Shown piece after piece: positions 7,351 through 58,954 of a DNA stretch of 64,000 nucleotides. A program made the translations under genes and the position numbers. Every line of letters starts with the position of its first letter. Within the stretch, counting starts at the first letter, position 1. The notes beneath the pieces are model-generated. The model ran no database searches. It worked only from the letters and a program-made list of their open reading frames with translations, and was not told the origin of the DNA. The stretch lies in the NCBI GenBank assembly GCA_025964325.1, contig JAOPZA010000112.1, forward strand, positions 1 to 64,000, written 5' to 3'. The DNA comes from Conexibacter sp. (lineage in GTDB: Bacteria; Actinomycetota; Thermoleophilia; Solirubrobacterales; Solirubrobacteraceae).

Positions 7351-7356
7351 CTCCCC

Positions 7357-7809: not shown

Positions 7810-7865
7810 GTTCTCTCCTTCGTTCGTCATCAGCGTCGTCCAAGGCCGCCCGTCGGGCGCGGTCC

Positions 7866-8219: not shown

Positions 8220-8280
8220 GATCACGCACTCCTTCCGCACACCGGCTCGCCGGCGCGTCACGTTGTCTTGCGTTTCACCG

Positions 8281-8889
8281 TCACACCCCGTCGCGCACCG
8301 GCTGCGAGGGGACGTGGCCCGAAGGGCGGCTGACGCCGTCACGCTCCTTCGAAAGCAGCTCGATGAAGCGGGCCTCGTGCTGGACCTTGTCGTCGAGGAT
8401 CCGCGCGACCAGGGCGTACGTGCGGGTGTCGGTGCCGAAGGTGAGATCGGCGACGTCGCTCCACGCGTGGATGCCGGAGCGCTCGTGGCCGAGCAGGGCC
8501 TGGAGCACCGCCGCGGCCGTGGTGCCGGCGCCGTTCTGCTCGGAGAGCGGCCCGGCCCAGGCGACCTGCTCGCCGAGCGTGAAGTCCCCGACGTCGGTCG
8601 GGATCGCTCCGCCGAGCTCGTAGATGCGCGGCGCGATCAGCTCGAAGTGGGCGCGGTTGTTGAGGCGCGCCTCCTCGCACGCCGCCTGCTGCGTGTCGCT
8701 GCCGGTCAGCTGCGCGCGCAACCCGAGGTAGGCGAAGTACGCGACGAGCTCCGAGGCGGCGGCGCCGAGGAGCCGGTCGATCAGATCGGCGAGGTCGACG
8801 CCGCGGGCGACGATCCGCTCGACGCCGACTCGCTGCGTGAGATCGTCCGCCCGGACCCGAGCGACCGCTGGCTTCTGGAGGACCCGCAT
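8281..8889 (-). CDS. Ferritin-like four-helix protein, function unknown
   Basis: Helical repeats with AAASELVAYFAYLGL, NRAHFELIAPRIYELGG and DKVQHEARFIELL; ATGA overlap with upstream DUF1116 gene. Confidence 0.7.
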   Translation of the reverse strand: MRVLQKPAVARVRADDLTQRVGVERIVARGVDLADLIDRLLGAAASELVAYFAYLGLRAQLTGSDTQQAACEEARLNNRAHFELIAPRIYELGGAIPTDVGDFTLGEQVAWAGPLSEQNGAGTTAAAVLQALLGHERSGIHAWSDVADLTFGTDTRTYALVARILDDKVQHEARFIELLSKERDGVSRPSGHVPSQPVRDGV

Positions 8890-10166: not shown

Positions 10167-10173
10167 CGTCGGC

Positions 10174-11601: not shown

Positions 11602-11685
11602 GCGGTTCTCTTTCGTCTCGACGACGACGGCGGGAGCGGCAGCCCACGCCGAGCTCATGGCGTCCTGGTGCGTCTGTGCAGCGAC

Positions 11686-12855
11686 CTACGTGATGCGCAG
11701 GAACCGCTCCGCGTTCTCGGAGAGGACCTTGCGTTCAACGGCGGCGGACGTCGTGCTCCACGAGAGCACGCCGCCGCGGGCGTCGGGGAAGTTGGTGTTC
11801 CCATAGGGGAAGTGAGACTGGTAGACGAGCGCGTCCTCACCCAGCAGCGTCATCACGCTCGCCGCGATCGCCTCGCCCTCGTACGGCTCGAGCCCGACGT
11901 AGATGCGTCCGTCGCGCGCATAGTCGAGCGGGTCGCACTTCAGCTCAGCGGCACGTCCCGGGAACTGGTGCGCCTGCCCGCGCAGCTGACACAGCCACGA
12001 CGGCAGCCACCCCGATCCGGCCCCGCCGAAGCCGACGCGCAGCGTCGGATACCGATCGAACAGGCCGCCGAAGACGAGCGACGCCAGCGCTCGCTGCGCA
12101 CTCCACTGGTGCGCGGCGGCCCGTGCCATCAGCGGGTTGCTCCACAGATCCCGGTGGCCGGGGAACGACGGCCACCCCTCGATGAACGCGTGGTGGAAGA
12201 GGGGCAGGCCGGCGTCCGTCATCTCGTTCCAGATCGGCTCGAGAGCGGGGGCGTCGAGCGGCATGCCCGCGGGCAGGCAGATCGCGAGCGCGGCGACGCA
12301 CGGCTCGATCGCGAGCAGTCGGATGTTCTCGGCCGACCAGGCGGGATCTCCGCCGTGCACGAGCAGCACCGCCTTGAGCCGACTGGCGTCCGCCTCGCAG
12401 TACGTCACGATGTAGCGGTTGTACGCCTCGATCAAGCCGACCGAGAGATCGCGCCCGACCTCCGTGCTCAGCCACGGAACCGGACCGGGACCGATCAGCT
12501 GCAGATCGATGCCGGCGCGGTCGAGCTGACGCAGCCGGCCGGTTGCGTTGTCGTGGAGGATCCCCTCCTCGACCGGCTGCTCGGGGGCCGTCTCCGCATC
12601 CTCGCCCCATGCGTCGCTCGCCGTCGCTACGCCGCCGTTCTCCTGCCGAGCGCGCAGTCCATGTCTCGCCGTCTCGAGCCGCAGCGAGGGATGGCCCCAG
12701 TCGCCGCGGTCCGCCCGCGGACGCTCGGTCAGGCGCAGGAAGGGCCGCAGCTCGTCCCAGCGTCCGCGGAAGTCGCCGCGGCCCTGCTCGTAGAGCAGCT
12801 CCATCGCCGGACGGACGTAGGAGTCGGTGTCGACGATGCGCAACGACGCGCTCAT
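11686..12855 (-). CDS. Amidohydrolase-2 family protein (copy 1)
   Basis: IVDTDSYVRPAMELL, AGIDLQLIGPG, LPLFHHAFIEGWPSF, FGGAGSGWLPSWLCQL; 4-bp overlap with upstream Rieske gene. Confidence 0.8.
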   Translation of the reverse strand: MSASLRIVDTDSYVRPAMELLYEQGRGDFRGRWDELRPFLRLTERPRADRGDWGHPSLRLETARHGLRARQENGGVATASDAWGEDAETAPEQPVEEGILHDNATGRLRQLDRAGIDLQLIGPGPVPWLSTEVGRDLSVGLIEAYNRYIVTYCEADASRLKAVLLVHGGDPAWSAENIRLLAIEPCVAALAICLPAGMPLDAPALEPIWNEMTDAGLPLFHHAFIEGWPSFPGHRDLWSNPLMARAAAHQWSAQRALASLVFGGLFDRYPTLRVGFGGAGSGWLPSWLCQLRGQAHQFPGRAAELKCDPLDYARDGRIYVGLEPYEGEAIAASVMTLLGEDALVYQSHFPYGNTNFPDARGGVLSWSTTSAAVERKVLSENAERFLRIT

Positions 12856-14132
12856 TCTGAGCTCGAAGCGCCGTTGGGAGCGAGCTTCGCGTCGCCGTTC
12901 GCCTTCCCGTGCCCGTTGATCTCGCCGTAGCCGAGCGCGGGCGCGTAGACCCGGTCGATCAGCCACTCGTGGAACATCCAGGCGCCGAGCTCGTGCTCGC
13001 AGAAGCGGCCGGCGCCGCCGACGCGCGTGCGCAGCCCCTTGTGCTGGGTCTCGGCGATCCCGTTGTCCTCGGAGATGAACCCCTCGCTGTTGCGGGCGTA
13101 CATCTCGACCTTCGGGACGACGTCCGGGTCGCCGTCGAAGTACCGCTCGGCGATCTCCTTGTCGACCATCAGGCCCATCACGAACCGCGTCTTCTCGGCG
13201 GAGTCCGGAAAGAAGGCGAACCAGACGGTGGCGTCGAGCGAGTTCAAGGCGCCGAACAACGGGAAGGCAAGCCAGATCGGCATCCCCTGGTACTCGATCG
13301 GCACCTTCGTGAGCAGATCGGGGTTGTAGGGGAACTCCGGCTCGCCGGTGTCACCGATGCAGATGCCGGGGAACTGGCCGACGCCCACCTGCCACGGCTG
13401 ATCGGTGAGTCCCTCGAAGAACGTCCATCCCTTCATCGGCGTGAACACCTGGAACGTCTCACCGTGAACCCACGGGAGGTGATACTCCTCGTGGTAGTTC
13501 TCGAGATACGCCTTCCAGTTGCAGTTGATCTCGAACTCCCACTGGTGGGTCGTCACCTGCCCACCCATCCCGTACAGGCTCATCCCCCACTTCTCCATGT
13601 CGCTCACCTGCGGAGCGAAGGGCTGAGCGTCCTTGTCGAAGTTGACGAGGATGAAGCCCTGCCAGAGCTCCACGCCGAGCGAGTGCAGCGGGAAGTCCTC
13701 CTTCTTGAAGTCGACCGTCTGGCGGAACTCCGGCGCTGCCCGCAGCTTTCCGTCCAGGCCATACATCCAGCCGTGATACGGGCACCGGAAGGACTTCGTG
13801 TTGCCGCATCCCTCGACCAGTTGGCTCCCGCGGTGGCGGCAGTAGTTGACGTGCGCGCGGATCTCTCCGTCGCCGTCGCGCACCACGATCACCGACTCGC
13901 CGGCGATCTCGCGCGTGAGGAAGTCGCCGGAGTTCGGGACGTTCTCCAACCGCCCGACGCAGAGCCACTCTCTCATGAAGACCTCCTTCACCTCGAGCTC
14001 GAAGATCTCGGGCGAGGTGAAGAAGTGCGGCGGGAAGTTGAGCGCCTCCAAGGTCGGCTTCCTGAACTCTCGGAGGTCGTCTTCGGTTACGAGCTTCCGA
14101 AGTACGTCTGCGTCAGCGACGAGATCAGCCAT
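12852..14132 (-). CDS. Rieske non-heme iron oxygenase alpha subunit (copy 1)
   Basis: CRH-x16-CPYHGW Rieske motif; EEYHLPWVH (H-x4-H) mononuclear iron motif. Confidence 0.92.
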   Translation of the reverse strand: MADLVADADVLRKLVTEDDLREFRKPTLEALNFPPHFFTSPEIFELEVKEVFMREWLCVGRLENVPNSGDFLTREIAGESVIVVRDGDGEIRAHVNYCRHRGSQLVEGCGNTKSFRCPYHGWMYGLDGKLRAAPEFRQTVDFKKEDFPLHSLGVELWQGFILVNFDKDAQPFAPQVSDMEKWGMSLYGMGGQVTTHQWEFEINCNWKAYLENYHEEYHLPWVHGETFQVFTPMKGWTFFEGLTDQPWQVGVGQFPGICIGDTGEPEFPYNPDLLTKVPIEYQGMPIWLAFPLFGALNSLDATVWFAFFPDSAEKTRFVMGLMVDKEIAERYFDGDPDVVPKVEMYARNSEGFISEDNGIAETQHKGLRTRVGGAGRFCEHELGAWMFHEWLIDRVYAPALGYGEINGHGKANGDAKLAPNGASSSE

Positions 14133-14368
14133 GAGCAGCGTCCTTTTCTCTTGAACGAGCGGGACAAGGGCGCCTGCACGAGCAGGCACAACCGGATTCC
14201 GATAGCCGGCGGCGGCCTCCTTGGGACGCGAGCCGACCGAGACGTGTCGTCGTCGTAGCGCCGGGACACAGTCATCTCTCCAGAAAGGTGCACCGTGCCT
14301 TGGTGCGTCAACCTTATAGAGCGTGCACGCAGGATGTCAAGGCAAATCCTTGCAGAACGCCGAACATG

Positions 14369-14383
14369 GTTAGTACACTCACG
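14369..14383. promoter_or_regulatory. GGTTAGTACACT-type motif in divergent Rieske-1 / GTGKW-1 intergenic region (approximate bounds)
   Basis: Resembles GGTTAGTGCACTAC (reverse strand) at about 4935-4946. Confidence 0.3.
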
Positions 14384-14447
14384 CCGTCACACCGGTTGCC
14401 ACAGCCGAGTCGCTGGCTCGGCGTCCACGAGAGAGGTTGGTGATGTC

Positions 14448-14906
14448 GTGCGCGTACGAGTCTCAGGAGGTGGAACGGCGAACTGGTCGACGCCGATCCG
14501 CGTTGACGAGAACACCTGGAAGGCCAACTACGAGACCTTCCTGCTGCACCGGTACACCTTCGACGACGGGCGTCACATCCACGTGCGGACCCGCTACGCC
14601 GGCATCGACGACATCTCGGCGGACGGCACGGTCTACGCCGGCATCGGGAACTTCGAGGGCATGGACGACGACGGCGACTGGAACCACGGTCGCATCGACT
14701 GGATCATCCGCGACGACTACCAGGCCGCGGTCTTCAACTTCCTCTACGGGACCGGCAAGTGGGAGGGCGCCAGCGGCGCGATCGAGGCGCCCGTCTGGGC
14801 GGAGCCCGAGAAGCACCGCCAGGTGATGCCGCCGCAGGGCCCGATCCGGTTCTGGGGCTACATCGAGGGCGAGGGCGAGCTGACGCTGCCGAAGTTCGAC
14901 TCCTGA
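14448..14906 (+). CDS. GTGKW-family small protein of unknown function (copy 1)
   Basis: VRVRVSGGGTANWSTPIRVDENTW...GTGKWEGASGAIEA...FWGYIEGEGEL; aligns with four other proteins in the window; GTG start inferred from copies. Confidence 0.8.
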   Translation: MRVRVSGGGTANWSTPIRVDENTWKANYETFLLHRYTFDDGRHIHVRTRYAGIDDISADGTVYAGIGNFEGMDDDGDWNHGRIDWIIRDDYQAAVFNFLYGTGKWEGASGAIEAPVWAEPEKHRQVMPPQGPIRFWGYIEGEGELTLPKFDS

Positions 14907-14918
14907 TCCAGCGAACAC

Positions 14919-14955
14919 CTCGTCGGGAACCGGTCACGCGCCGGCTCCCGACGAG
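14919..14955. terminator. Strong stem-loop, possible terminator
   Basis: CTCGTCGGGAACCGG - tcacgcg - CCGGCTCCCGACGAG, 15-bp arms with one mismatch; no T-tract. Confidence 0.5.
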
Positions 14956-14975
14956 CGGCCGGCCCTACTGAAGCA

Positions 14976-15656
14976 ATGCAGATCCTCGTCCTCCAACACG
15001 AGCGCAGCACGCCCGCCGGCCTCTTCGACGACTGGGCGCGCGACCGCGGACACACGCTCGCGCGGCTCGAGGTCCCCGAGCTCGGCGCCTGGCCGGATCC
15101 CCGCGGCGCGGATGCGGTGCTGACGCTCGGATCGGACTGCTCGGTGCACGCGTCGCACGAGGGCTGGATCGCCGAGGAGATCGCCTTCCTGAGGGAGGCG
15201 CACGACGCCGACGTCCCGATCCTCGGGATCTGCTTCGGCGGGCAGGCGCTGTCGAAGGCGCTCGGCGGCGAGGTCAGCCGCGCGCCCCGGGTCGAGCTGG
15301 GCTGGCAGGCGATGCCGACCGTCGATGCCGCGCTGATCCCACCGGGCCCGTGGTTCCGCTGGCACGAGGACGTCTTCACCGTGCCGCCCGCGGCACGCGA
15401 GCTCGTCCGCGTGGGCGACATGCCGCTCGCGTTCGCGGCGCGCCGGAGCGTCGGGCTGCAGTTCCACCCGGAGGTCGGGGCTGAGCTGGTGGCGGAGTGG
15501 ATCGAGGGCGGCCGTCGACAGCTCGCCGAGCTGGCGATCGACCCGGACGCGCTCGGTGAGCAGATGGCGCGCGCGGCGCGCGGCGCGCGGGAGCGTGCCT
15601 ACGACCTGTTCGACCGCGTCGCGCACCACTGGTCCCGGGCGACGCCCGACACGTAG
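14976..15656 (+). CDS. Class I glutamine amidotransferase (GMP-synthase-like)
   Basis: Nucleophile motif ILGICFGGQALSKALGG; FHPEV histidine motif. Confidence 0.9.
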   Translation: MQILVLQHERSTPAGLFDDWARDRGHTLARLEVPELGAWPDPRGADAVLTLGSDCSVHASHEGWIAEEIAFLREAHDADVPILGICFGGQALSKALGGEVSRAPRVELGWQAMPTVDAALIPPGPWFRWHEDVFTVPPAARELVRVGDMPLAFAARRSVGLQFHPEVGAELVAEWIEGGRRQLAELAIDPDALGEQMARAARGARERAYDLFDRVAHHWSRATPDT

Positions 15657-20991: not shown

Positions 20992-21675
20992 TCAGATGTC
21001 GTCGTAGGTGCTGACTTCGGCGCCGATCGCGTCGTCGCGAGCCTCGGGCCACACGGCGTTCGGGCGCTCCGCCTGCATCCAGTAGTCGCTGTGGTGGCGC
21101 TCGAACAGCTCGGCGCCGAGTCTGCGCGCGGCGTCGAGCGGTCGGTCGGGGTCGTAGCGGACCTCGCCGCGCTTGTTGCCGATGCCGTTGACGACGCCCA
21201 CGAACGGGCTTCTCAGGTAGCGCGCGATCTCCTGCAGCTGGAACGTGACGCCGTGACCGGCCGCGGGATAGCGCTCCTCCGAGGCGAGCAGCAGCGCGAT
21301 CCGCTTGCCGAGCAACGCGGGCACGACCTCGTCGCGCCGCGGGTAGCTGGCCGCGATGTAGCAGGTGAGGCGATCGAAGTAGTTCTTCAGGCTCGCCGCC
21401 ATCCCGTACCAGTACAGCGGCGTGGCGTACACGGTCGCGTCGGCCGGGACAACGAGCTCGTGCACGAGCGTGGCGAAGTCGTCCTCGATCGAGCAGGTCC
21501 CGTCTGGCCGGCGGCACGTGCGGCAGTCGCGCAGCGTCTCGGTCATCGCGGTGCCCAGCTCGACGATGTCGGCCTCGTGTCCGGCCTCGCGCGCGCCGTC
21601 CGCCAGCGCCAGCGACATCGCCATCGAATTGCCATCGGGGCGGGGGCTGGCGCACAGGACGACGATCCGGCTCAT
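20992..21675 (-). CDS. NAD(P)H-dependent FMN reductase / flavodoxin-like
   Basis: ASPRPDGNSMAMSLALADG, PLYWYGMAASLKNYFDRL. Confidence 0.88.
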   Translation of the reverse strand: MSRIVVLCASPRPDGNSMAMSLALADGAREAGHEADIVELGTAMTETLRDCRTCRRPDGTCSIEDDFATLVHELVVPADATVYATPLYWYGMAASLKNYFDRLTCYIAASYPRRDEVVPALLGKRIALLLASEERYPAAGHGVTFQLQEIARYLRSPFVGVVNGIGNKRGEVRYDPDRPLDAARRLGAELFERHHSDYWMQAERPNAVWPEARDDAIGAEVSTYDDI

Positions 21676-22118
21676 GCCGAGGCTCCGGTCAGCGACGCGA
21701 CGGCGTACTCGAGGGAGACGACGCGCGACTCGTGGTAGTGGACGAGCTTCCAGCGGCCCTCGGTCGCGCGCAGGCCGAGCGAGCAGCGCACGATGCCGTC
21801 GAACGTTCTCTCGACGTCCCTGAGCTTGATGCTCGTCGTCAGCTTCTGCCAGACCATCGCAGCGTTGCCGATGACCTGGACCGCGGTCTCGGCCGCGTCC
21901 CACTCCGGCACCGCCTCGACGTGTCCGGGGACCCACGCCCAGTAGTCGACGAGCGCTCTGATCGTCGTCATCGGCTGCTCGAGCTCCTCGGGCTGGTAGA
22001 GCAGGTTGCCGTCGAAGCCCTCGTCCCACAGCTCCTTCGTGGCCGCGAAGTCGAGGCTCCGGATCGCGCTCAGCCATGCGTCGCAGGTGGCGCGCACGTC
22101 CTGTTCGGCTGCAGTCAT
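21672..22118 (-). CDS. NTF2/SnoaL-like protein
   Basis: 148 aa with SnoaL-like layout; overlaps downstream flavin reductase start. Confidence 0.65.
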   Translation of the reverse strand: MTAAEQDVRATCDAWLSAIRSLDFAATKELWDEGFDGNLLYQPEELEQPMTTIRALVDYWAWVPGHVEAVPEWDAAETAVQVIGNAAMVWQKLTTSIKLRDVERTFDGIVRCSLGLRATEGRWKLVHYHESRVVSLEYAVASLTGASA

Positions 22119-22167
22119 CGCGTAGCTCCCGGTCGGTTCGTGTGTGGTGGCCTGGTAGCCGACGCCC

Positions 22168-23289
22168 TCAGGCGTCGAAGTCGAGCACGACGCGCCTGCT
22201 CGCCGGGTGCGCCTGACACGTCAGCGCGTAGCCGTCGGCGAGCTCCTCCGAGTCCAGCCCCGACGACCGTCTCATCCGGACCTCGCCCTCGACGACGAGC
22301 GCGCGGCAGGTCGAGCAGACGCCGTCTCTGCACGAGTACGGCGCCTCCGGCCGGTCGGGCAGGACCGCGTCGAGGATGCTCGGCCCGTTGGAGCTGAGCT
22401 CGAGCTCGGTGCGTCTTCCGTCGAGCACGACGGTGACGTCGCACGTGATCTCCGGCGCGTTCGGGTCGTCGCCGTCGTCCGCGTCGGAGACGGCGAACAG
22501 CTCGTGGTGGATGCGCCGCGGGCTGACGCTCAGCTCGGTCAGCGCGGCCCTCGCGCCGTTGACCAGGCCCTCGGGACCGCACAGCAGCCACTCGTGGAAT
22601 CTCCCGGCCGGCATCGTCGCGGTGAACAGCTCCCGCAGCGCCGCCTCGTCCAGCCGGCCAGCCGGCCGCCCGTCGGGCGACGGCTCGCGCGAGTAGACGT
22701 GGTGGATCGTGAGGCGGTCGCCATGACGCTCGCGCAGCGCGTCCAGCTCCGCTCCGAGCATCACGCTCGACGGGCGCCGGTTGACGTTGAGCAGCGTCAC
22801 GCGGCTGCGGCGCTCGACGGCGAGCACGGTCGCGATGTTCGACAGGATCGGCGTGATCCCGCTGCCACCCGCGACCGCGCCGTAGCGCTTGTCGTGCGCG
22901 GGGTTGACGTGGGCCGAGAAGCGGCCGTTCGGCGTCATCACGCCGAGCACCTGCCCGACTCGCAGCTCGGTTGTCGCCCACGTCGAGAAGCGCCCGCCCT
23001 CGACCCGCTTGACCGCCACGCGCAGCGGACCGGTGCCGGCCGGCGCGCAGATCGAGTAGGAGCGTCGCAGCTCCTCCTCACCGTCTCTGTGGATCAGGGT
23101 GACGTGCTGGCCCTGCGTGAACCAGTACTCGTTGCGCAACTCGTCGGGGACGTCGAAGGTGAGGCAGACGGCGTCGTCGGTCAGCCACCGCACGTCGGCG
23201 ACGCGCAGCTCGTGCACGCGAGGCGCGCGCCGCCCGCTCGCGGGTCGAGGGGGCGTCGCGCCTTGGAGGCGTCTGGGAAGTGGGGGCAC
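22168..23289 (-). CDS. Ferredoxin-NAD(P)H reductase fused to 2Fe-2S ferredoxin (PaaE-like oxygenase reductase)
   Basis: RRSYSICAP, VAGGSGITPILS, LLCGPEGLV, CRDGVCSTC plus distal C (ferredoxin). Confidence 0.9.
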   Translation of the reverse strand: MPPLPRRLQGATPPRPASGRRAPRVHELRVADVRWLTDDAVCLTFDVPDELRNEYWFTQGQHVTLIHRDGEEELRRSYSICAPAGTGPLRVAVKRVEGGRFSTWATTELRVGQVLGVMTPNGRFSAHVNPAHDKRYGAVAGGSGITPILSNIATVLAVERRSRVTLLNVNRRPSSVMLGAELDALRERHGDRLTIHHVYSREPSPDGRPAGRLDEAALRELFTATMPAGRFHEWLLCGPEGLVNGARAALTELSVSPRRIHHELFAVSDADDGDDPNAPEITCDVTVVLDGRRTELELSSNGPSILDAVLPDRPEAPYSCRDGVCSTCRALVVEGEVRMRRSSGLDSEELADGYALTCQAHPASRRVVLDFDA

Positions 23290-23328
23290 GCGGGACTCTG
23301 ACGGGGGCGGTGAGCGGGTGACTCGGGA

Positions 23329-23784
23329 CTAGCGGAGGTGCGGCACGTCCAGCTCGCCCTCCCCGTCGATGAACCCGTAGTTGCGGAACGCCTCCGTCGG
23401 CGGCATCGGCATCTCGATCTCCTGCGGCTGGTCCCACACCGGCGCTCTGATGACGCCGCTGCAACCCTCCCACTTGCCGGTGCCGCCGAGGTGGTGGTAG
23501 TTGCCGCCCTGATAGCCGGGGACGACCTCCCAGTCGACGCGGCCCCACAGCGCGTCGCCGTCCTCGTCCTGACCCTCGACGTGACCGAAGCCGCCGCTGA
23601 CCGCGCCGTCGGCGTTGACGTCGTCGACACCGGCGTATCTGACCTTGACGTGGACGGCGCGGCCGTTCTCGAACTCGTAGCGCGTGGCGATGTAGGCCCG
23701 GTAGGTCGCCCGCCACTGCCCGGCTCCGATCTGGACCGGCTTGTCCCAGTCCGCGGTGCCTCCGCCGATCATTCGAACTCTCAT
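23329..23784 (-). CDS. GTGKW-family small protein of unknown function (copy 2)
   Basis: MRVRMIGGGTADWDKPVQ...GGTGKWEGCSGVIRAPVW...NYGFIDGEGELDVP. Confidence 0.82.
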   Translation of the reverse strand: MRVRMIGGGTADWDKPVQIGAGQWRATYRAYIATRYEFENGRAVHVKVRYAGVDDVNADGAVSGGFGHVEGQDEDGDALWGRVDWEVVPGYQGGNYHHLGGTGKWEGCSGVIRAPVWDQPQEIEMPMPPTEAFRNYGFIDGEGELDVPHLR

Positions 23785-23862
23785 CGGTCTCCCTCGCTCG
23801 TGTGGACGGCGCCGGGCGGACCCCGGTGCACGTAGCTCACACCAGAGGCGGCGGCCCCCGCT

Positions 23863-23880
23863 ATTGGCCGTTAGGCCCAT
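23863..23880 (+). promoter_or_regulatory. Candidate operator S1: ATTGGC-CGTTAG-GCCCAT
   Basis: 18-bp motif 79 bp upstream of GTGKW copy 2. Confidence 0.5.
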
Positions 23881-23912
23881 CTTGTGCGATGCGCTGCGCG
23901 CCTCGCCGGCGG

Positions 23913-24917
23913 CTACGCGCTGCTCTGGCCCGCGTGGCGCGGGAGCAGGAGGCCTTCGACGACGGCTCTGCCGACGGCGGCGGCGCGGGAGGCGACGCCG
24001 AGCTTCTCGAGTATGTGCTCGACGTGGGCGCGGACGGTGCGGGTCGTGACCCAGAGCTGTGCGGCGATCTCGCTGTTCGAGGCCCCGTCGACGAGGCTCG
24101 TGAGCACTTCCAGCTCGCGTCTGGTGAGCCCGTAGGGGCTCTCCAGCTCGCGGTAGCCGAGCACGGCGACGCCGTCGCCGCAGCGGAACGCGCGGCAGCC
24201 GTACCAGCCGCCCTCCGCGCGCGGCCACAGGAAGGCGACGCTGTTGCGTCTGCCACTCAGCACGTGCTCGACCATCTGCCGCGCCGGCGCGCTGGCGTCG
24301 ACCAGCGCGGGCGCCGGCGCGCCGCGCAGCTGGACGAGCGTCCCGCCTTTCACGAGCGCGACGGCGTTGTAGGCGTCGCCGAGCGTCGAGGCGAGCACGT
24401 GCGCGGACTGCAGCGGGTCGACCATGTTGGCGAGCGCCTCGGAGAGGTGGCCGATCAGCGCGCAGGCGTCGTCCGAGGGCGACGCCTCCTCCGCCCACGA
24501 GAGCATCACGAAGCCGGCGTCGCGCCCGTCCGGGGTGATCAGCGCGCTCAGCAGGCCCTCGTAGAGCCCCGCCTGACGACCGGCCATGATCCCCTGCAGC
24601 GACATCGGGTCGATCGGCAGGTCGCGCTCGCGCACCGGCCAACCGGTCCGCGGCAGGCCGAAGGGCTCGATGCACTCGGCGTACCACTCGGGGCCGACGA
24701 GATAGTCGGCGAACGCGTCGGGGTAGCCGCGCGTGACGAGGGCACGCGGCTCACCGGTCGCGGGATCGACCGACGAGACGATCCCGGCGTCGAAGGGGAA
24801 CACCAGCCGCAGCTGGTCGAGGACCTCCTCGGTACGGTCGCGAACGGGGGCGCCCGACGCCGCGATCCCTGCGATGCGGGACATCACGTCGAGCCAATTC
24901 GGCGACCGTAGACTCAC
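23913..24917 (-). CDS. LuxR-family regulator with GAF-like N-terminus (copy 1)
   Basis: LTRRELEVLTSLVDGASNSEIAAQLWVTTRTVRAHVEHILEKLGV; start approximate. Confidence 0.85.
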   Translation of the reverse strand: MSLRSPNWLDVMSRIAGIAASGAPVRDRTEEVLDQLRLVFPFDAGIVSSVDPATGEPRALVTRGYPDAFADYLVGPEWYAECIEPFGLPRTGWPVRERDLPIDPMSLQGIMAGRQAGLYEGLLSALITPDGRDAGFVMLSWAEEASPSDDACALIGHLSEALANMVDPLQSAHVLASTLGDAYNAVALVKGGTLVQLRGAPAPALVDASAPARQMVEHVLSGRRNSVAFLWPRAEGGWYGCRAFRCGDGVAVLGYRELESPYGLTRRELEVLTSLVDGASNSEIAAQLWVTTRTVRAHVEHILEKLGVASRAAAVGRAVVEGLLLPRHAGQSSA

Positions 24918-24985
24918 CTGCGGCTCCACTCTCCTCGCGTGCTTGGCGTCGCGCCGTTCACAAAACGTACTCTGTTGTGTGCCGA

Positions 24986-26053
24986 TCACATAGCCGCCGA
25001 GCTCGTTCCCGACCGGCGCCGGTGCAGGTAGGCCGCCAATCCGACGCCGAGGATCAATGCGATGCCGTTGACGTAGTTGGACACGTACGGCTGGGCCCCG
25101 GCGAGGTTCAACCCGTTGTTGAGGACGGCGAGGAAGAAGATCGCCACGAGCGCACCGCCGACGTTGTAGCGACCGGGCTTGACCGAGGCGGCCGACAGGA
25201 ACGCGGCCGCCAGCGCCGGCAGCGTGAAGCCGGCACCGACGTTCGGATCGGCGCCGCCGGCGCGCGCGACGTAGAGCACGCCGGCGGCGCCGGATAGCGC
25301 ACCGGCGGCGATGAACGTGACGCCGAGCACCAAGCGCGTGCGCATGCCGACGAGCGCGGCGGCGGCGCGGTTGGAGCCGAGCGCGTAGATCTGGCGGCCG
25401 AGTGGCGTGTGTGCGAGCAGGTAGTAGACGAGCAGCGCGACCGCCACCATCGCGTAGGCGACGCGCGGGATGCCGAACGTGTTGCCGGTGCCGAAGTCGG
25501 TGAACGCCTTCGGGATGTCGGCGACGACGGCCTGACCGCCGGTCTTCTGCGTCACGACGCCGTCGAGGATCGTCGCCATCCCGAGCGTCGCGATGACGCC
25601 GTTGACGCCCGCGCGGGTGACGAGGAGGCAGTTGACGACGCCGGCCGCCGTCCCGATCCCGACGCCGTACAGGATCGCGATCGGGACCGGCAACCCCCCT
25701 GACAGCGCGCTCGCCACGAGCACCGCCGCCAGCCCGGCGATCGCGCCGACCGAGAGATCGAACTCGTTGCAGACGAGCGGGATCAGCGCACCGAGCGCGA
25801 TGATCGCGGTGACGGCCTGGTTGGAGAAGAGGATCTGCAGGTTGGCGCTGCTGAGGAACGTGTCGCCGGTCTTGGACCAGACGCTGAAGAAGATCGCCGT
25901 CAGCACGAGCAGCACGAGCAGCGCGTTGGCCTCCATCAGCCGCAGCACGCGACCCGACGACGACGAGGACGACCTGCGGGGCGCGCGCGCGACCCCGGCG
26001 ATCGGTTCGGGGGCGGGCTCGGCGGCCTGCACCGGGGGCTCGAGGGAACTCAT
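24986..26053 (-). CDS. ABC transporter permease, ribose type (importer 2)
   Basis: NEFDLSVGAIAG, GSNRAAAALVG; very similar to importer 1 permease. Confidence 0.9.
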   Translation of the reverse strand: MSSLEPPVQAAEPAPEPIAGVARAPRRSSSSSSGRVLRLMEANALLVLLVLTAIFFSVWSKTGDTFLSSANLQILFSNQAVTAIIALGALIPLVCNEFDLSVGAIAGLAAVLVASALSGGLPVPIAILYGVGIGTAAGVVNCLLVTRAGVNGVIATLGMATILDGVVTQKTGGQAVVADIPKAFTDFGTGNTFGIPRVAYAMVAVALLVYYLLAHTPLGRQIYALGSNRAAAALVGMRTRLVLGVTFIAAGALSGAAGVLYVARAGGADPNVGAGFTLPALAAAFLSAASVKPGRYNVGGALVAIFFLAVLNNGLNLAGAQPYVSNYVNGIALILGVGLAAYLHRRRSGTSSAAM

Positions 26054-27594
26054 GCGTGGCGCTCCTGTCCGTACACGGCGGCATTCAACATGTCTTCGCG
26101 CAGCTGGTCGCGAGGAAGGTCGGCGACGACGCGGCCGTCGCGGACGACGATCGCCCGGTCGCACGCGGCGACGAGCTCCTCGAAGTCCGACGAGACGAGC
26201 AGCGCGGTGGCGCCGTCGTCGACCGCTCTGCGGATCAATCCGTGGATCTCCGCGCGCGCGCCGACGTCGACGCCCTGCGTCGCCTCGTCGAGCAGCAGCA
26301 CGCGCGGTCTGCGTTGCAGCCAACGCGCGAGGATCACCTTCTGCTGGTTGCCGCCCGACAGCGACGACAGCGGCGCCTCCTCGGACTCAGCGCGCACGAG
26401 GAAGGACGACATCAGAGCGCGCGCGCCGGCCTTCTCCTCGCGCCCGTCCATGCGGCCGAAGCGCGTGTAGGTCGGCAGCGTGGAGAGCGACAGGTTCTCG
26501 GCGATCGACAGGTCCGCGAACGCGGCATCGGCCGTGCGGTCCTCCGGCACGTAGGCGATCCCGGCGGCCATCGCCGCACGGCAGTCGCCCACGTCCGCCG
26601 GCTCACCGTCGATCCGCACGCCGCTCGGCGGCTCCTCGCCCATCCCGAACAGTCCGCGGAGCAGGGAGGTGCGGCCCGATCCCAGCACGCCGGCGACGCC
26701 GACGACCTCGCCGGCGCGCAGCTCGAGGCAGGCGCCGTCGCCGCCGAGGCCGTCGGCCTCGAGCACGAGCGCGCCCTGCTCGGCCGCGACGACGCGCTCG
26801 CTGGCGTCGGCCGCCCGCACGATCGCGGCGCCCGCGTCGCCCAGGATCAGCTCGACGAGCCGCTCGCGCGTGATCTCGGCGCGCCCGAGCGTGGCGACGA
26901 CCGCGCCGTCGCGGAGGACCGTCGCCTCGTCGGCGACGCGGATCACCTCGTCGAGGCGGTGCGTGACGTAGACGATCGTCTGGCCCGCGCGGGCGTAGCG
27001 CCCGAGCGCGCCGAGCAGCAACGCGACCTCGTGACGCGGCAGGCGCGCCGTCGGCTCGTCCAGCACGAGCACGCCGTCGTGCGCGTCCTCCTGGTCCTGC
27101 AGAGCGCGCGCGATCGCGACCATCATCTGGTTCGCCGAGCCGATCGAGCGCAGCTCGGCGTCCGGATCGGCGTCGATCTCGAAGCGCTCGAGCACCTTGG
27201 CCGCACGCTCGTGCAGCTTGGACCAGCGGACGCGGCCGCCGACCCCGGTCTCGAAGCCGCGCCCGAGCGCGAGGTTCTCCGCGACCGTCAGCTCGGGGAA
27301 CGTCGAGTCCTGCTGATGGACGAACTGCAGCCCCGCGGCCCGCGCACGGACCGCCGTCTGCGCGCGGGCGTCGTGCACGACGCCTCCGAGCTCGATCTCG
27401 CCGGCGTCGGCGGGAACGACGCCGGCGAGGACCTTGATGAGCGTCGACTTGCCGGAGCCGTTCCCGCCGAGCAGCGCGTGGATCGTGCCGCGCGACACCT
27501 CCAGGGAGGCGCCCCGCAGAGCCTGCGTGTTGCCGTACGCCTTGGCGATCCCGTGCAGACGCAGGGCGGCCATCGCCTCGTCTGGCGCGGCCAT
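26050..27594 (-). CDS. Sugar-type ABC ATPase (importer 2)
   Basis: GGNGSGKSTLIKVLAG, LSGGNQQKV; near-collinear with importer 1 ATPase. Confidence 0.93.
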   Translation of the reverse strand: MAAPDEAMAALRLHGIAKAYGNTQALRGASLEVSRGTIHALLGGNGSGKSTLIKVLAGVVPADAGEIELGGVVHDARAQTAVRARAAGLQFVHQQDSTFPELTVAENLALGRGFETGVGGRVRWSKLHERAAKVLERFEIDADPDAELRSIGSANQMMVAIARALQDQEDAHDGVLVLDEPTARLPRHEVALLLGALGRYARAGQTIVYVTHRLDEVIRVADEATVLRDGAVVATLGRAEITRERLVELILGDAGAAIVRAADASERVVAAEQGALVLEADGLGGDGACLELRAGEVVGVAGVLGSGRTSLLRGLFGMGEEPPSGVRIDGEPADVGDCRAAMAAGIAYVPEDRTADAAFADLSIAENLSLSTLPTYTRFGRMDGREEKAGARALMSSFLVRAESEEAPLSSLSGGNQQKVILARWLQRRPRVLLLDEATQGVDVGARAEIHGLIRRAVDDGATALLVSSDFEELVAACDRAIVVRDGRVVADLPRDQLREDMLNAAVYGQERHA

Positions 27595-27597
27595 CGC

Positions 27598-28773
27598 CTA
27601 GCCCTTCCAGGCCTTCGTGTACGCCGCCGCGAAATCGACCGGCGCCACCCATGCGCCGGAGGCGGGCATGTTGTGGTCGATGTCGAAGACCATCATGCCG
27701 ATGCCCGAGGGCTGCGGTCTCTGGCCCTCGAAGAGTCGGTTGAGCGCATCCATGCCGGCCCACCCCTCCCACGCCAGCGACGTGCTGTAGCCGGCGTTCT
27801 CCCCGGCATCCTTGCGCACGAGATCCATGTTCGGCGCAAGACCGCCGCCCGCCACGACGTTCAGCCGAGCTCTTCGGCCCGACGCCATCACCGCGGCCGC
27901 AGGACCCGACGTCATCGCTCCGTCGTAGGGGACCATCAGCACGTTGGCGTCCGGGTTCTTGAGGATCGCCTGCTGGGTCTTCTCCTGCAGTCTCGGGCCC
28001 AGCTCGGTGCCGTCGAACGTCACCGAGTCGACGATCTTGCAGCCGGCGCACGTCTTGATCGTGTCGGCGAAGCCGGCCTGGATCGCTCTCGTGGAGCCGA
28101 GGTCGTTCTCGAACAGGTTGATGACCTTGGCCTTGCCGTCGGTCTTGACGATGGCCCAGTCGGCCTCGGCCGCACCGGCGGCGTGGGCCCAGCTGAAGAA
28201 ATCGCCCTGCGAGTACTCGACGGTGCCGTCGAACAGCGCGGAGCTGCCGGCGCCGCAGTCTGCGGACTCTGCTCCGACGACCTGGACTCTCGCGGCTCTC
28301 GCCTCCTGCAGCGCGGCTCTCACCGACGCGCAGTCGATCGCGTACATGAAGATGCCGTCGGCCTTGGCGGCGATCGCCTGGCGCACCCCGTCGAGGTAGC
28401 GGGACGGCTGGAACTTGCCGTCGTAGACCGTCGTGTTCCAACCCAGCAGCCTGCCGGCGGCCTGGACGCCCTGGGCCACGAGCGCGCCCTCCGGCGCGGC
28501 GAGGCTGGTGTCGATCAGCCATACGTTCTTGCCCGCCTGCGGCTTGGGGCCGCTCGACGGTGGCGCTCTGAACGTGACGCCTCTGTAGAGCGCGTCGAGC
28601 CGCTGCTTGGCCTCCGCGACTCCCCCGCCGGTCGCCGACGCGGTCGTGCTGCTGCTGGCGACGGCCGTGGAGCTGCCGCTGCTGGTGCTGCTGCTGCTGC
28701 CGCACGCGGCAACGCCGATCGCCGTGGCGACCAGCGCGGCGACGACGACGCTGCGCTTCGGGATGTCACCCAT
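27598..28773 (-). CDS. Substrate-binding lipoprotein (importer 2)
   Basis: VAACGSSSSTSS lipobox/linker; aligns with importer 1 binding protein. Confidence 0.88.
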   Translation of the reverse strand: MGDIPKRSVVVAALVATAIGVAACGSSSSTSSGSSTAVASSSTTASATGGGVAEAKQRLDALYRGVTFRAPPSSGPKPQAGKNVWLIDTSLAAPEGALVAQGVQAAGRLLGWNTTVYDGKFQPSRYLDGVRQAIAAKADGIFMYAIDCASVRAALQEARAARVQVVGAESADCGAGSSALFDGTVEYSQGDFFSWAHAAGAAEADWAIVKTDGKAKVINLFENDLGSTRAIQAGFADTIKTCAGCKIVDSVTFDGTELGPRLQEKTQQAILKNPDANVLMVPYDGAMTSGPAAAVMASGRRARLNVVAGGGLAPNMDLVRKDAGENAGYSTSLAWEGWAGMDALNRLFEGQRPQPSGIGMMVFDIDHNMPASGAWVAPVDFAAAYTKAWKG

Positions 28774-28809
28774 CTGCAGTACCTCTTCCTGGTCCTGGGT
28801 TGCGCCGCT

Positions 28810-30084
28810 CTACACCGAAGGAGTCGTCGCGAGCGTTCCGGCCCGGGCCTGCTCGAACGCGCGGTGCGCCCGCTCGAAGCACTCGAGCGGCGCGGTCAGC
28901 AGCCCCGCGCCGATCTGGCCGCCCCCACGCCCGGCGAGCCCGGCGTCGATGACGGGCAGCACCTTGGACTCCACGACCTTATGGACGTCGATCCCGACGG
29001 GCGTGCCGCGATAGCCGAAGTAGGGGATCGCGAAGTCCGAGTGCTCGGCGACGGTGATGCCGTACATCGCCTCGTTGATCGCTGCCATCGCCTGCGGCGA
29101 GCCGCCCTGGTACGCCTGCAGCGCGAACGCCGCCGCCTGCGCGAAGCCGCCGAGACCGACGGTCTCGGTGATCATGCTCTCGCCGCCGATCCACTCGATG
29201 TCGTCCTCGGTGTACGGGTGGAAGAGCTTGGCCCGCACGTTCGGCAGTGGGCCACGGAACCACGCGTCGCCGAGTCCGCTGATGCGGATCGCGAACTCCT
29301 TGCACGACAGCGTCATCGCGCTCACGACGCTCGACCCCTCGACGCCGTGCGCGGCGTCGGCGGTCGCCTTCGCGGCCGCCATGCCGACGCGCAGGAAGAA
29401 GTAGTCGTTGACCGACACGAACGCGACCGTCCGGCGCAGCGCGTCGGGAGCGACCGTGCCGGCGAGCGCGAGCTCGATCAGGTGCGGGGTCAGCTCCTTC
29501 ATCAGCAGCGTCGTGGCCGCGGTGTTGCGGCTGTGCAGCTCGTCGCCCATGCGGACGGCACGCGCCATCAGCGGCTTGAGGTCGATCGAGCCGGCGTGCC
29601 GAACGGCCTCGCCGAGCACCGGGCCGACGACGTGCTCGAGGAATCTCAGGCCGTCGCGAACCTCGTCGTCGTAGACGCCGTAGTTGAGACGGCGGTGCGA
29701 CTGGCCCTCGTAGAGGTTGCAGAAGCCGGTGTTGCCGAACTCGGTGTTCTCCACGACGAGCACCGGCATCGACGCGGTGTAGATGCCGGCGACCGAGCCG
29801 ACGCAGCCGTGCGCGTGGCAGGTGCCGAGCGTGATCTCGCCGGAGGCGAGCCTCGCGTCGGCGTCCTCCTCGGTCTCGGCAAGGCCCTCGTAGATCGCGC
29901 CGTAGATGACGGCCAGCCGCTGCCCGCCGGTGTAGTCCGACCACCGCATCGGCGGACCGGCAGTCAGGATCGTCCGGGCCGTCATGTCGGGGACGACCTC
30001 GCCGGCGGGGCGGACGTCGGTCAGGCGCGGCGTCGAGGCGCACAGGCGGCGAGCCGCCTCGGCGTTGGCTTCTTCACGCGTCAT
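28810..30084 (-). CDS. DUF1116 protein, AllG/YlbE-like (copy 2)
   Basis: MTREEANAEAARRL...GDELHSRNTAATTLL...GGGQIGAGLLTAPLECF. Confidence 0.85.
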   Translation of the reverse strand: MTREEANAEAARRLCASTPRLTDVRPAGEVVPDMTARTILTAGPPMRWSDYTGGQRLAVIYGAIYEGLAETEEDADARLASGEITLGTCHAHGCVGSVAGIYTASMPVLVVENTEFGNTGFCNLYEGQSHRRLNYGVYDDEVRDGLRFLEHVVGPVLGEAVRHAGSIDLKPLMARAVRMGDELHSRNTAATTLLMKELTPHLIELALAGTVAPDALRRTVAFVSVNDYFFLRVGMAAAKATADAAHGVEGSSVVSAMTLSCKEFAIRISGLGDAWFRGPLPNVRAKLFHPYTEDDIEWIGGESMITETVGLGGFAQAAAFALQAYQGGSPQAMAAINEAMYGITVAEHSDFAIPYFGYRGTPVGIDVHKVVESKVLPVIDAGLAGRGGGQIGAGLLTAPLECFERAHRAFEQARAGTLATTPSV

Positions 30085-30089
30085 CGCGC

Positions 30090-31469
30090 TCACCACAGCC
30101 GCAGGTACTGGTCGCGCTCCCACTCGGAGACGACGGTGTTGTACTGACGCCACTCCTCGCGCTTGTAGGAGACGAAGCTCCTGTGGAACTCCTCGCCCAG
30201 CACGTCGCGGGCCAGCTCGTCGCGCTCGAGCGCGTCGCAGGCATCGCCGAGCGTCCGCGGGAGGCGGTGCACGCCGGCCGCTGCCAGCTCGGCGTCGTCG
30301 ACGCTGTACGTGTCGGTGTTGACCGGCTCGCCAGGGTCGAGTCTCCGGCGGATCCCCTCCAACCCCGCGCCGAGCATCAGCGCGGTGACGAGGTAGAAGT
30401 TCGAGCCCATGTCGGCGGTGCGCAGCTCGACGCACTGACGGCCCGTGGGCAGACGGCACATCAGCGTGCGGTTGTTGTCGCCGTAGGCGGCATAGACCGG
30501 CGCCCACGAGATCTCGTTCATGTGGCCGATCGGCAGGAGGCGCTTGTACGAGTTGACGGTCGAGCAGGCCAGCGCCGTGATCGCGCCCGCGTGCTCGAGC
30601 AGCCCGGCCGTGAACGCCATCGCCGCGGGCGTGTAGCCGTTGCGCCCCTTCTCGGCGGCCGCCGAGAAGGCGTTGGCGCCGCTCTCGAGGTCGGCGAGGC
30701 TCATGTTCAGGTGCGCGCCGGAGCCGAACGAGCTCGAGCTCCACTTCGGCATGAACGACGCGAACGCCCCGAGCGTGCGCGCGACGTGCTTGACCATGAG
30801 GCGGAAGAGGATCATCCGGTCCGCCATCTCGAGCGCCTCGCAGTAGTCGAAGTCGAACTCGTACTGGCTGTCGCCGCCCTCGTGGTCGAACGAGTAGACC
30901 TTCCAGCCGAGCTCGTTCATGTACTCGACCATCGGCTCGAGGAACGCGTCGGCCGTCACCGTCGCGTCGATGTCGTAGCCGCGCGTCGGCCCGTTGATGC
31001 CGTCGTCGGTGGCCCACGGCTCGATCTGGCCGTCCTCGCCCTCTCTCAGGACGTAGACCTCGGGCTCGATGCCGAGGTTGACGCGATAGCCGAGCTCGGC
31101 GGCGGCTGCGATCTGCGTCTGCAGGACGTGACGGGAGTCATGGCTGTACGGCGCCCCCTCGAAGCGGAGGTTCGCCGGCGCGACCGCGTAGCGGCGGTCC
31201 CACGGCAGGACCGTCAGCCGCGACAGGTCGGGGATGCCGAGGCACTCGTCCTCGTGCGGGCCCAGGGCGCCCATGCCCTCGAGGGCGCCGACGGTGTAGC
31301 GCTCGGAGCCGGTCGCCATCTCCTCGAGGTGCGACAGCGGCACGACCTTCGACTTCGCGACGCCGTGGATGTCCACGAACGCGCCGAAGAGGTATTTCAC
31401 CCCCTCGCCTTCGAGTCTCTCGCGGAGGGCGTCGAGCGCGCCTTCGATGTCGTTGAGCGTCTCTTCCAT
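30090..31469 (-). CDS. Glutamine synthetase family ligase (copy 2)
   Basis: GIEPEVYVLREG, SGAHLNMSL, CSTVNSYKRLLPIGH, NNRTLMCRLPTGRQCVELRTADMGSNFYL. Confidence 0.9.
   Translation of the reverse strand: MEETLNDIEGALDALRERLEGEGVKYLFGAFVDIHGVAKSKVVPLSHLEEMATGSERYTVGALEGMGALGPHEDECLGIPDLSRLTVLPWDRRYAVAPANLRFEGAPYSHDSRHVLQTQIAAAAELGYRVNLGIEPEVYVLREGEDGQIEPWATDDGINGPTRGYDIDATVTADAFLEPMVEYMNELGWKVYSFDHEGGDSQYEFDFDYCEALEMADRMILFRLMVKHVARTLGAFASFMPKWSSSSFGSGAHLNMSLADLESGANAFSAAAEKGRNGYTPAAMAFTAGLLEHAGAITALACSTVNSYKRLLPIGHMNEISWAPVYAAYGDNNRTLMCRLPTGRQCVELRTADMGSNFYLVTALMLGAGLEGIRRRLDPGEPVNTDTYSVDDAELAAAGVHRLPRTLGDACDALERDELARDVLGEEFHRSFVSYKREEWRQYNTVVSEWERDQYLRLW
30647..30670. repeat. 24-bp perfect palindrome inside GS-family copy 2
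   Basis: CCTTCTCGGCGG/CCGCCGAGAAGG. Confidence 0.8.
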
Positions 31470-31577
31470 CTGTGTCAATTCCGTTTCGGATCGGTCGTTC
31501 AGCACGCGGGATCGGGGGCTCGCCGCTCCGGCGTCCCGCCGTCCTGCGTGCAGGTGCGCAGCGTGAGCGGCCCGGGC

Positions 31578-32867
31578 CTAGGCGCCGGCGGTGGCGCTCT
31601 CGATCACCGGGCCGGAGACGGTGTGCTCTCCGACCAGGCGCTTGGCGAGGTAGCGCTGAAAGGTCATCAGCGCGATCTCGAGGTGGGAGAGCGCGCCGCC
31701 CTCGTGCGACAGGCCGGAGGAGAACATCCGCTGGACGCCCCGCATCGCGCCGCTGTCCTCGGCTTGGACCGCGGAGAGCCATCTCTTGCCCTCCTCGATC
31801 GCCACCTTCGCCTCTGGCGTGTCGGCGTAGTCCTTGTGGAACAGGAACTCGATGTCGAGGTTGTGCGAGGTGTGACCGGTCGGCTGGAAGCTCAGCGTTA
31901 TGAGCATGTCCGGGCCGGTCACGTAGATGAAGCCCGGGTAGAGCCCGAGCACGCCCGTGTTCGACTGCTCGAACGGCGTCAGGCCCGGCGCGGGCGGCAT
32001 CAGCATCGGGCTGATCAGGTGGCCGTCCTCCTGACCCGTCGCGAACTCCTTCGAGATGAACATGCGGGCCATGAAGAACTCGTTCCGCGGGCTCGGCTCG
32101 AACTGGATCATGTGGGCGGGCCACATCGGCTCCAGCGTCTTGCCGTGCGTGCCGATGTGGTGGTACGCCTCGCGTCCGTTGTCGACGACGAGCTTCCAGT
32201 TGGCCTCGGTCTCACCCCACGCGATGCGGTCCATGAGGCGCCAGTCGGTGGCGTCGTAGTTGCCGAGCGCGGCCTCGACCTCGGGGCCGAACGTGTCCGT
32301 GAGGGCCGCGGCGTCGGGATCGAGGTTCACGAAGACGAAGCCCTGCCAGGTCTCGACGCGGAACTGCGGCAGCGCGTAGCCGTCCTTCTCCTCCTCGAAC
32401 AGCCTCGAGCGATTCATGTACGGCGCGCTGGTGAGTCTGCCGTCGAGCTCGTAGGTCCAGAGGTGATACGGGCAGGTCAGCTTCTCGGCGTGGCCGCAGC
32501 GTCTCCCCTGCTCACCGTCGAGCAGGTCCATGAAGCGATGACGGCAGACGCGTGAGAGCGCGCGGATCTCGTCGTCCTGGCCCTTGATGACCACGATCGG
32601 CTCGCCGGCGATCTCTCTGGCGATCCAGTCACCGGGGTTCTGGAGCTCCTCGACCCGCCCGACGTGGATCCACGACTTGCGCCAGATCCTCTCCAGCTCG
32701 AGCTGGTAGATCTCCGGGTTGGTGTAGAACTCGGGCGGGAGCGCGCGGGCCTCTTCGAGCGGCTTGTTCGCGGTCTCGACGAGCAGGTCGAGAAGCTCGG
32801 AGACGGTGTTCAGCCTGCTGTACTGGCCATTGCGCGCTGCGTCGGTCTGCGCATCATCGGTGAGCAC
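31578..32867 (-). CDS. Rieske oxygenase alpha subunit (copy 2)
   Basis: CRH-x21-CPYHLW; YHHIGTH; GTG start with GAGGAGGG RBS. Confidence 0.9.
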   Translation of the reverse strand: MLTDDAQTDAARNGQYSRLNTVSELLDLLVETANKPLEEARALPPEFYTNPEIYQLELERIWRKSWIHVGRVEELQNPGDWIAREIAGEPIVVIKGQDDEIRALSRVCRHRFMDLLDGEQGRRCGHAEKLTCPYHLWTYELDGRLTSAPYMNRSRLFEEEKDGYALPQFRVETWQGFVFVNLDPDAAALTDTFGPEVEAALGNYDATDWRLMDRIAWGETEANWKLVVDNGREAYHHIGTHGKTLEPMWPAHMIQFEPSPRNEFFMARMFISKEFATGQEDGHLISPMLMPPAPGLTPFEQSNTGVLGLYPGFIYVTGPDMLITLSFQPTGHTSHNLDIEFLFHKDYADTPEAKVAIEEGKRWLSAVQAEDSGAMRGVQRMFSSGLSHEGGALSHLEIALMTFQRYLAKRLVGEHTVSGPVIESATAGA

Positions 32868-32931: not shown

Positions 32932-32949
32932 ATTGGCGCATCGGCCAAT
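32932..32949 (+). promoter_or_regulatory. Candidate operator S2: ATTGGC-GCATCG-GCCAAT
   Basis: Perfect 6-bp arms; 65 bp upstream of Rieske copy 2. Confidence 0.55.
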
Positions 32950-33007: not shown

Positions 33008-33025
33008 ATCGGTCAAGAGGCCAAT
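33008..33025 (-). promoter_or_regulatory. Candidate operator S3: ATTGGC-CTCTTG-ACCGAT
   Basis: Same motif, other strand; 62 bp upstream of dehydrogenase at 33087. Confidence 0.5.
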
Positions 33026-33086: not shown

Positions 33087-34112
33087 ATGAAGGCCGTCCG
33101 CGTGCACGAGTACAAGAAGCCGCCGTCGCTCGACGACGTGCCCCAGCCCGATCTGCAGGACCATCACGACGTGATCGTCCGCATCGGCGGGGCAGGCGTC
33201 TGCCGGACGGACCTCCACGTCGTGGACGGCTGGTTCGAGAACCTGATGCCGGTCGCGGCGCCGTTCATCCTCGGGCACGAGAACGCCGGCTGGGTCGAGG
33301 CCGTCGGCGATGCCGTCACGAGCGTCAGGGTCGGCGACCAGGTGATCGTCCACCCCCTCTCGACGTGCGGCGTCTGCTCGGGCTGCCGCCACGGCGAGGA
33401 CATGTACTGCTCGACGAGCGCCTTCCCGGGCGTCAACACCGACGGCGGCTACGCCGAGTACCTGCGCACCTCGCAGCGTTCGCTCGTCCACCTGCCGGAG
33501 CAGCTCGCCCCTGCGGCGGTCGCTCCCTACGCCGATGCCGGCATCACCGCGTACCGCGCCGTGCGGAAGGCCGCCGCGATCCTCAGACCGGGCATGACGG
33601 CGGCCGTCATCGGCGTCGGCGGCCTCGGCCACATCGGCATCCAGCTGCTGGGCGAGACGACGCCGGCGCAGATCGTCGCGATCGACAAGGCCGAGCGCGG
33701 CCGCGACCTGGCCAGGAGAGTCGGCGCCGAGGTCGTCGTCTCGCCGGAGGACGCCCCCGCGACGATCGCCGAGCTGACCGGCGAGCTCGGGGTCGACGTC
33801 GTGATCGACTTCGTCGGCGAGCACGACACGCCGAGCCTCGCGCTCGAGATCCTGCGCCAGGGCGGGACGTACTTCATCGTCGGGTACGGCGCGACGCTGA
33901 ACTACGACACGACGCTGCTCGTGCTCCGGGAGATCACCGTCGTCGGCAACCTCGTCGGCAACTTCGACGACCTCGTCGGCCTGATGAGACTGGTCGAGCG
34001 CGACCGCGTGCGGCTCGAGACCAGAACGTACACGCTCGACCAGGCCGTCCAGGCGCTCGACGATCTCGACAACGGGCGGATCACCGGCCGCGGGGTGCTC
34101 GTCCCCGCCTGA
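33087..34112 (+). CDS. Zinc-type NAD(P)-dependent alcohol dehydrogenase
   Basis: AGVCRTDLHVVDGW, GHENAGWVEAVG, CGVCSGCRHGEDMYC, GVGGLGHIGIQL. Confidence 0.93.
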   Translation: MKAVRVHEYKKPPSLDDVPQPDLQDHHDVIVRIGGAGVCRTDLHVVDGWFENLMPVAAPFILGHENAGWVEAVGDAVTSVRVGDQVIVHPLSTCGVCSGCRHGEDMYCSTSAFPGVNTDGGYAEYLRTSQRSLVHLPEQLAPAAVAPYADAGITAYRAVRKAAAILRPGMTAAVIGVGGLGHIGIQLLGETTPAQIVAIDKAERGRDLARRVGAEVVVSPEDAPATIAELTGELGVDVVIDFVGEHDTPSLALEILRQGGTYFIVGYGATLNYDTTLLVLREITVVGNLVGNFDDLVGLMRLVERDRVRLETRTYTLDQAVQALDDLDNGRITGRGVLVPA

Positions 34113-52033: not shown

Positions 52034-52079
52034 CGCTCCGTCCTCGTTTGCGGTCGTACGGGTGGTCATGATGCTTTCG

Positions 52080-58936: not shown

Positions 58937-58954
58937 TGCAAAAGCGGTTTTGCA
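58937..58954. promoter_or_regulatory. Candidate LacI-type operator
   Basis: TGCAAAAGCGGTTTTGCA, 7-bp perfect arms, upstream of DUF1116 copy 3. Confidence 0.6.

Follow-up and report, generated by a model that had tools for sequence, protein, structure and literature searches.

A probable LuxR-controlled amine-utilization regulon in Conexibacter sp. with a GmaS-like ligase and a DUF1116/AllG protein

Systems that resemble parts of the locus analysed here have been described in several pathways. Group V Rieske monooxygenases (CntA, GbcA, Stc2) oxidise amines and operate with partner reductases; CntA, a carnitine monooxygenase, depends on the bridging glutamate E205, and the signature of the group at CntA position 203 is an aromatic residue or Asn (PMC7948474), while some members have a Cys-X-X-Cys pair beside the iron (PMC10952381). 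The ligase GmaS, gamma-glutamylmethylamide synthetase, is marked by a flap Trp, by Asp177, Glu186 and Arg312, and by the lack of Asp50' of glutamine synthetase (PMC7948447). Together with mgsABC and mgdABCD, gmaS makes up the gene set of the N-methylglutamate pathway (PMC5023235). The aniline and 1-naphthylamine gamma-glutamylation systems (AtdA, NpaA) bring together a glutamine-synthetase-like ligase, a Rieske oxygenase and a reductase, and are defined by a GATase-like enzyme and a Rieske beta subunit in the cluster (PMC11335346). Finally, the oxamic transcarbamylase of Escherichia coli requires AllF, AllG and AllH, with AllG as one of three subunits (PMC11326118).

The window, a stretch of 64,000 nucleotides from a Conexibacter sp. 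assembly of 251 contigs, contains a gene run with counterparts of several of these enzymes. We propose, with a probability of roughly 0.55, that this run forms the principal part of a regulon under LuxR control, which would serve the use of an organic nitrogen compound, with N-alkylated and quaternary amines as the probable class of substrate. What is new in the cluster is a DUF1116/AllG protein, of a kind known only from allantoin breakdown, that occurs next to the ligase and without the partners it has there.

Gene organization and palindromic sites

Codon-based gene calls combined with family searches place eleven genes between 32867 and 20992, all on the minus strand and spaced by -7 to about 130 nt, with no plus-strand gene among the calls inside the run. 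The preliminary description had given the same strand, short gaps and end coordinates. In the direction of transcription, followed by the divergent gene and the palindromes, the features are:

31578..32867, minus: Rieske-2, oxygenase alpha subunit with bridging Glu E233 (Pfam Rieske and Ring_hydroxyl_A; nearest solved structure CntA)
30090..31469 (possible GTG start at 31505), minus: GS-2, GmaS-like gamma-glutamyl-amide ligase (Gln-synt_C; TIGR03105; GmaS structures nearest; residues)
28810..30096, minus: DUF1116/AllG-2, of the clade without AllF linkage (PF06545; tree)
27598..28773, minus: ABC importer, substrate-binding protein (Peripla_BP_4)
26050..27594, minus: ABC importer, sugar-type ATPase with two ATPase domains (ABC_tran, two stretches)
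24986..26053 (start about 26053, picked by reading), minus: ABC importer, permease (BPD_transp_2)
23913..24884, minus: LuxR-1, presumed palindrome-binding regulator (GerE; predicted model)
23329..23784, minus: GTGKW-2, small predicted beta-barrel protein (AlphaFold model; no Pfam or NCBIfam match)
22168..23217 (alternative start 23289), minus: flavin/2Fe-2S reductase for the oxygenase (FAD_binding_6, NAD_binding_1, Fer2)
21672..22118, minus: SnoaL-like protein (SnoaL_3)
20992..21675, minus: NADPH-dependent FMN reductase family protein (FMN_red)
33087..34112, plus: zinc-type alcohol dehydrogenase (ADH), divergent partner of the run (ADH_N and ADH_zinc_N; kept with the module in L020, L111 and L112)
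23863..23880, no strand: S1 palindrome, upstream of GTGKW-2 (1 mismatch; orthologous site in L020 at 3377)
32932..32949, no strand: S2 palindrome, upstream of Rieske-2 (1 mismatch; orthologous site in L020 at 1247)
33008..33025, no strand: third palindrome, upstream of ADH (1 mismatch)

The AllG-2 gene overlaps the ligase gene by 7 nt, and S1 lies between LuxR and GTGKW, where the spacing is widest at 128 nt. Searches for Rfam families and tRNAs returned no matches, and a promoter scan gave no informative signal at about 70% GC.

S1 and S2 are copies of an 18-bp palindrome, ATTGGYC-N4-GRCCAAT. Allowing up to two mismatches, seven copies are found in the window against a shuffle mean of 0.15 and a shuffle maximum of 2, a count that is partly circular because these copies also served to define the pattern. 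All seven are intergenic, although only 7% of the window is, and by the gene table they lie upstream of Rieske-2, ADH, GTGKW-2, GTGKW-3, Rieske-3/LuxR-2, GTGKW-5 and Rieske-4; at Rieske-2, ADH and GTGKW-2 the distance to the start codon is about 60 to 80 nt. In the Frankiales MAG L020, which played no part in deriving the pattern, the palindrome occurs twice, with 1 and 2 mismatches, at the promoters orthologous to those of Rieske-2 and GTGKW-2; 0.06 sites were expected, and two occurred in none of 300 shuffles. S1 and S2, first noted as motif sites, are real operator-like palindromes. Looser forms are common across the whole genome, so that site strength and position matter; the Rhodococcus loci have a weak form of the palindrome, with 3 mismatches and p about 0.02 at each locus, which we do not take as proof. 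LuxR-1, whose predicted model resembles LuxR-type receptors and GAF-containing proteins, is the presumed binder, by association of the conserved sites with adjacent LuxR genes. Two distantly similar LuxR relatives from the same genus occur without the module and with no good palindrome sites nearby. A different palindrome, the LacI-operator-like TGCAAAAGCGGTTTTGCA, lies at 58937-58954 upstream of AllG-3, with a LacI-family gene at 54935-55978.

The preliminary description had read the run as a complete uptake-activation-oxidation unit in which S1 restarts transcription at GTGKW-2. The functional part of that reading stands, as an importer, a GmaS-type ligase and a Rieske oxygenase with its own reductase do lie together, and a second start at S1 is likely given its conservation at the orthologous promoter. 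A single complete unit is not supported. The palindrome at 33008-33025 and the plus-strand ADH behind it had been missed; this ADH has its own site and is found with the module in three lineages. In L020 the genes are split into units with different boundaries: Rieske-2, SnoaL_3, reductase, GTGKW-2, LuxR-1 and importer genes occupy one strand, where the Rieske gene lies downstream of the reductase and SnoaL genes with a palindrome of its own; on the other strand, the ligase, AllG and ADH genes form a separate divergent unit. Genes for LuxR, GTGKW, ADH, Rieske and reductase proteins are also present on two Rhodococcus plasmids, with no ligase and no DUF1116/AllG in the stretches read, which suggests that the oxidation step may stand alone. 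The methylamine-handling genes, moreover, sit elsewhere on the contig. Because ADH is kept with the module in L020 and on the Rhodococcus plasmids, it belongs to the system, and the run is not indivisible; with the third palindrome serving ADH, the system is probably a regulon of several transcripts. On the Rhodococcus opacus plasmid pR1CP1 (L113, 3850-9435), genes for DUF1116, ligase, a gamma-glutamyl hydrolase family protein, a cytosine permease and a GTGKW-like protein occur together.

Transcription of the run as one 12-kb polycistronic message from S2, with S1 devoid of function, is unlikely. The genes share a strand, their gaps are short, and an intrinsic-terminator scan, weak at this GC content, found none inside the run (its two matches, at 33119-33138, fall outside), but S1 is conserved before GTGKW in L020 despite a different gene order and different unit boundaries.

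The Rieske oxygenase and the ligase

Rieske-2 contains the Rieske and catalytic domains by Pfam, with invariant 2Fe-2S ligands C108, H110, C132 and H135, and CntA is its closest solved structure by sequence. It shares with the group V enzymes the Rieske motif, a partner reductase and the bridging Glu, E233 within NGREAYHH, which corresponds to CntA E205 and has an equivalent in all four Rieske proteins of the window. It differs from them at the position of CntA residue 203, where G231 replaces the aromatic residue or Asn, and at the Cys-X-X-Cys positions, which are A234 and H237. Rieske-2 is therefore called group-V-like and not a member of the group. A bridging Glu is not general among the Rieske proteins near ligase-AllG pairs, since those of L011 and L054 have Asp.

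GS-2 scores 469.0 bits against TIGR03105, just under the cut-off of 469.6. Of its top two solved relatives, 9qur is a glutamate-methylamine ligase; the other, 7cql, was deposited under the name type III glutamate-ammonia ligase, and we take it to be the Rhodovulum GmaS described in PMC7948447. Every catalytic GmaS residue tested is present: D195, E204 and R334 match Asp177, Glu186 and Arg312, the flap Glu of glutamine synthetase is replaced by W322 (GmaS W300), and T59 stands in place of Asp50'. All tested active-site features of RhGmaS, including both losses relative to glutamine synthetase, are found in GS-2, which we classify as a GmaS-type gamma-glutamyl ligase. It differs from GmaS in being paired with AllG, whereas the other GmaS homologue of the contig lies beside mgsABC-like genes. 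Since that homologue scores higher against TIGR03105 (583 bits), GS-2 may use another amine. The further ligases GS-1 and GS-3 (10174-11658 and 56052-57488) have Val at the position of GmaS Asp177 and may catalyse something else.

The two enzymes bear on an aniline-type pathway, in which the ligase would first make a gamma-glutamyl-anilide and the Rieske oxygenase would then dihydroxylate the ring, as in AtdA/NpaA. As in those systems, ligase, Rieske and reductase genes lie in one run, and a class-I GATase gene is present elsewhere in the window (14976-15656). The run itself, however, has no GATase, no Rieske beta subunit was found by Pfam, the bridging residue of Rieske-2 is Glu, and methylamine is the substrate of the structurally solved ligases closest to GS-2, so that we regard this pathway as improbable. 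The same GATase gene marks one end, and a cupin-like regulator gene the other, of a further Rieske/ligase/AllG/amidohydrolase module at 5938-15656 that has no palindrome. Two small proteins without a Pfam match (7866-8240 and 51692-52069) are each encoded in a module that also contains genes for an amidohydrolase and a Rieske protein.

The DUF1116/AllG and GTGKW proteins

AllG-2 matches PF06545 with 245 bits against a cut-off of 27. A tree was built from 85 relatives; those that have AllF nearby, 19 in number, fall into a single clade with 100/100 support. None of the remaining 66, which come from Actinomycetota, Pseudomonadota, Chloroflexota and Gemmatimonadota, has AllF nearby, and in 46 of them a glutamine-synthetase family gene lies within 4.5 kb; such a gene is directly adjacent to AllG in 36 of the 63 of these that remain when the window's own are excluded. 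Core residues such as MGDELHxRN are common to both clades and to E. coli AllG; AllG-2 differs from the latter in belonging to the separate clade, with its ten clade-specific positions, and in having no AllF or AllH partner. A search of the source genome gave no match to AllH, with a positive E. coli control, and only partial, unrecognisable matches to AllF at 26% identity, none on this contig. The three AllG copies of the window are spread over different parts of the tree and are therefore not recent tandem duplicates. The records L004, L010 and L049, titled Bifidobacterium breve, have ligase-AllG pairs that fall among those of other Actinomycetota MAGs in the AllG tree, and these titles are likely to be incorrect.

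A ureide or allantoin-type pathway with AllG as a carbamoyltransferase, as in E. coli, draws on the known place of AllG in oxamic transcarbamylase and on the purine/cytosine-type permeases near several ligase-AllG pairs (not in this run), yet it is doubtful given the missing partners, the full support for a separate AllF-linked clade and the lack of a carbamate kinase among the run's genes.

Among the genes next to related ligase-AllG pairs are some for gamma-glutamyl hydrolase family and arginase-family proteins and amino-acid permeases, which fits gamma-glutamylated intermediates; FMN_red relatives also occur close to several pairs. We tentatively suggest that the AllG proteins of this clade and GmaS-like ligases could form a two-component enzyme that catalyses an amide or carbamoyl transfer, so far undescribed, with gamma-glutamylated amines as substrates; in some organisms this enzyme would be coupled to Rieske oxygenases with a bridging Glu. 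In the titles, abstracts and one passage seen of the DUF1116 literature, nothing on glutamine-synthetase-like ligases was found, and a literature search for Rieske oxygenation combined with glutamylation found no such system.

GTGKW-2 belongs to no Pfam or NCBIfam family. AlphaFold predicts it with confidence (mean pLDDT 92.6) as an all-beta fold of eight or nine strands, which is read as a barrel. The PloI4 cyclase and a dirigent protein were rejected as clues to function, with Foldseek TM-scores below 0.5. Among samples of 299 genomes of the class, 397 of the phylum and 200 related to L020, relatives were found only in the source genome and in that of L020; three more are on Rhodococcus plasmids. 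GTGKW is a rare protein.

Proposed pathway and relation to methylamine metabolism

In the regulon that we propose, the ribose-type ABC importer would take up the compound, and Rieske-2 with its own reductase would oxidise it, most likely by C-N cleavage to a small amine and an aldehyde or alcohol. ADH would oxidise the carbon fragment, while the GmaS-like ligase would join the amine to glutamate and DUF1116/AllG would act on the same intermediate. GTGKW-2, the SnoaL-like protein and the FMN reductase may have roles in the same system. Binding of LuxR-1 to the palindromes at Rieske-2, ADH and GTGKW-2 would give at least three transcripts.

Any methylamine released would feed the N-methylglutamate pathway, whose genes lie farther down the contig:

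Window 59047-63898 and L104 1865-9765 (contig C34, about 59.0-69.8 kb): GmaS homologue, MgsABC-like proteins, sarcosine-oxidase-type subunits and PurU

The GmaS homologue and the glutamate-synthase-like proteins that match MgsA, MgsB and MgsC by domain lie past the window end; this group adjoins the sarcosine-oxidase-type subunits and PurU, both inside it. From their position, we take these subunits to be MgdABCD. PurU aside, the set resembles gmaS/mgsABC/mgdABCD, a complete-looking N-methylglutamate pathway as judged from the genes, and the organism likely uses methylamine.

In the literature found, the tested function of AllG (DUF1116) is only that of one subunit of a three-part transcarbamylase. 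The large group of AllF-unlinked, often ligase-adjacent AllG proteins implies an unassigned reaction in amine catabolism, and the window offers, for a test of this reaction, a defined set of regulated genes together with an operator.
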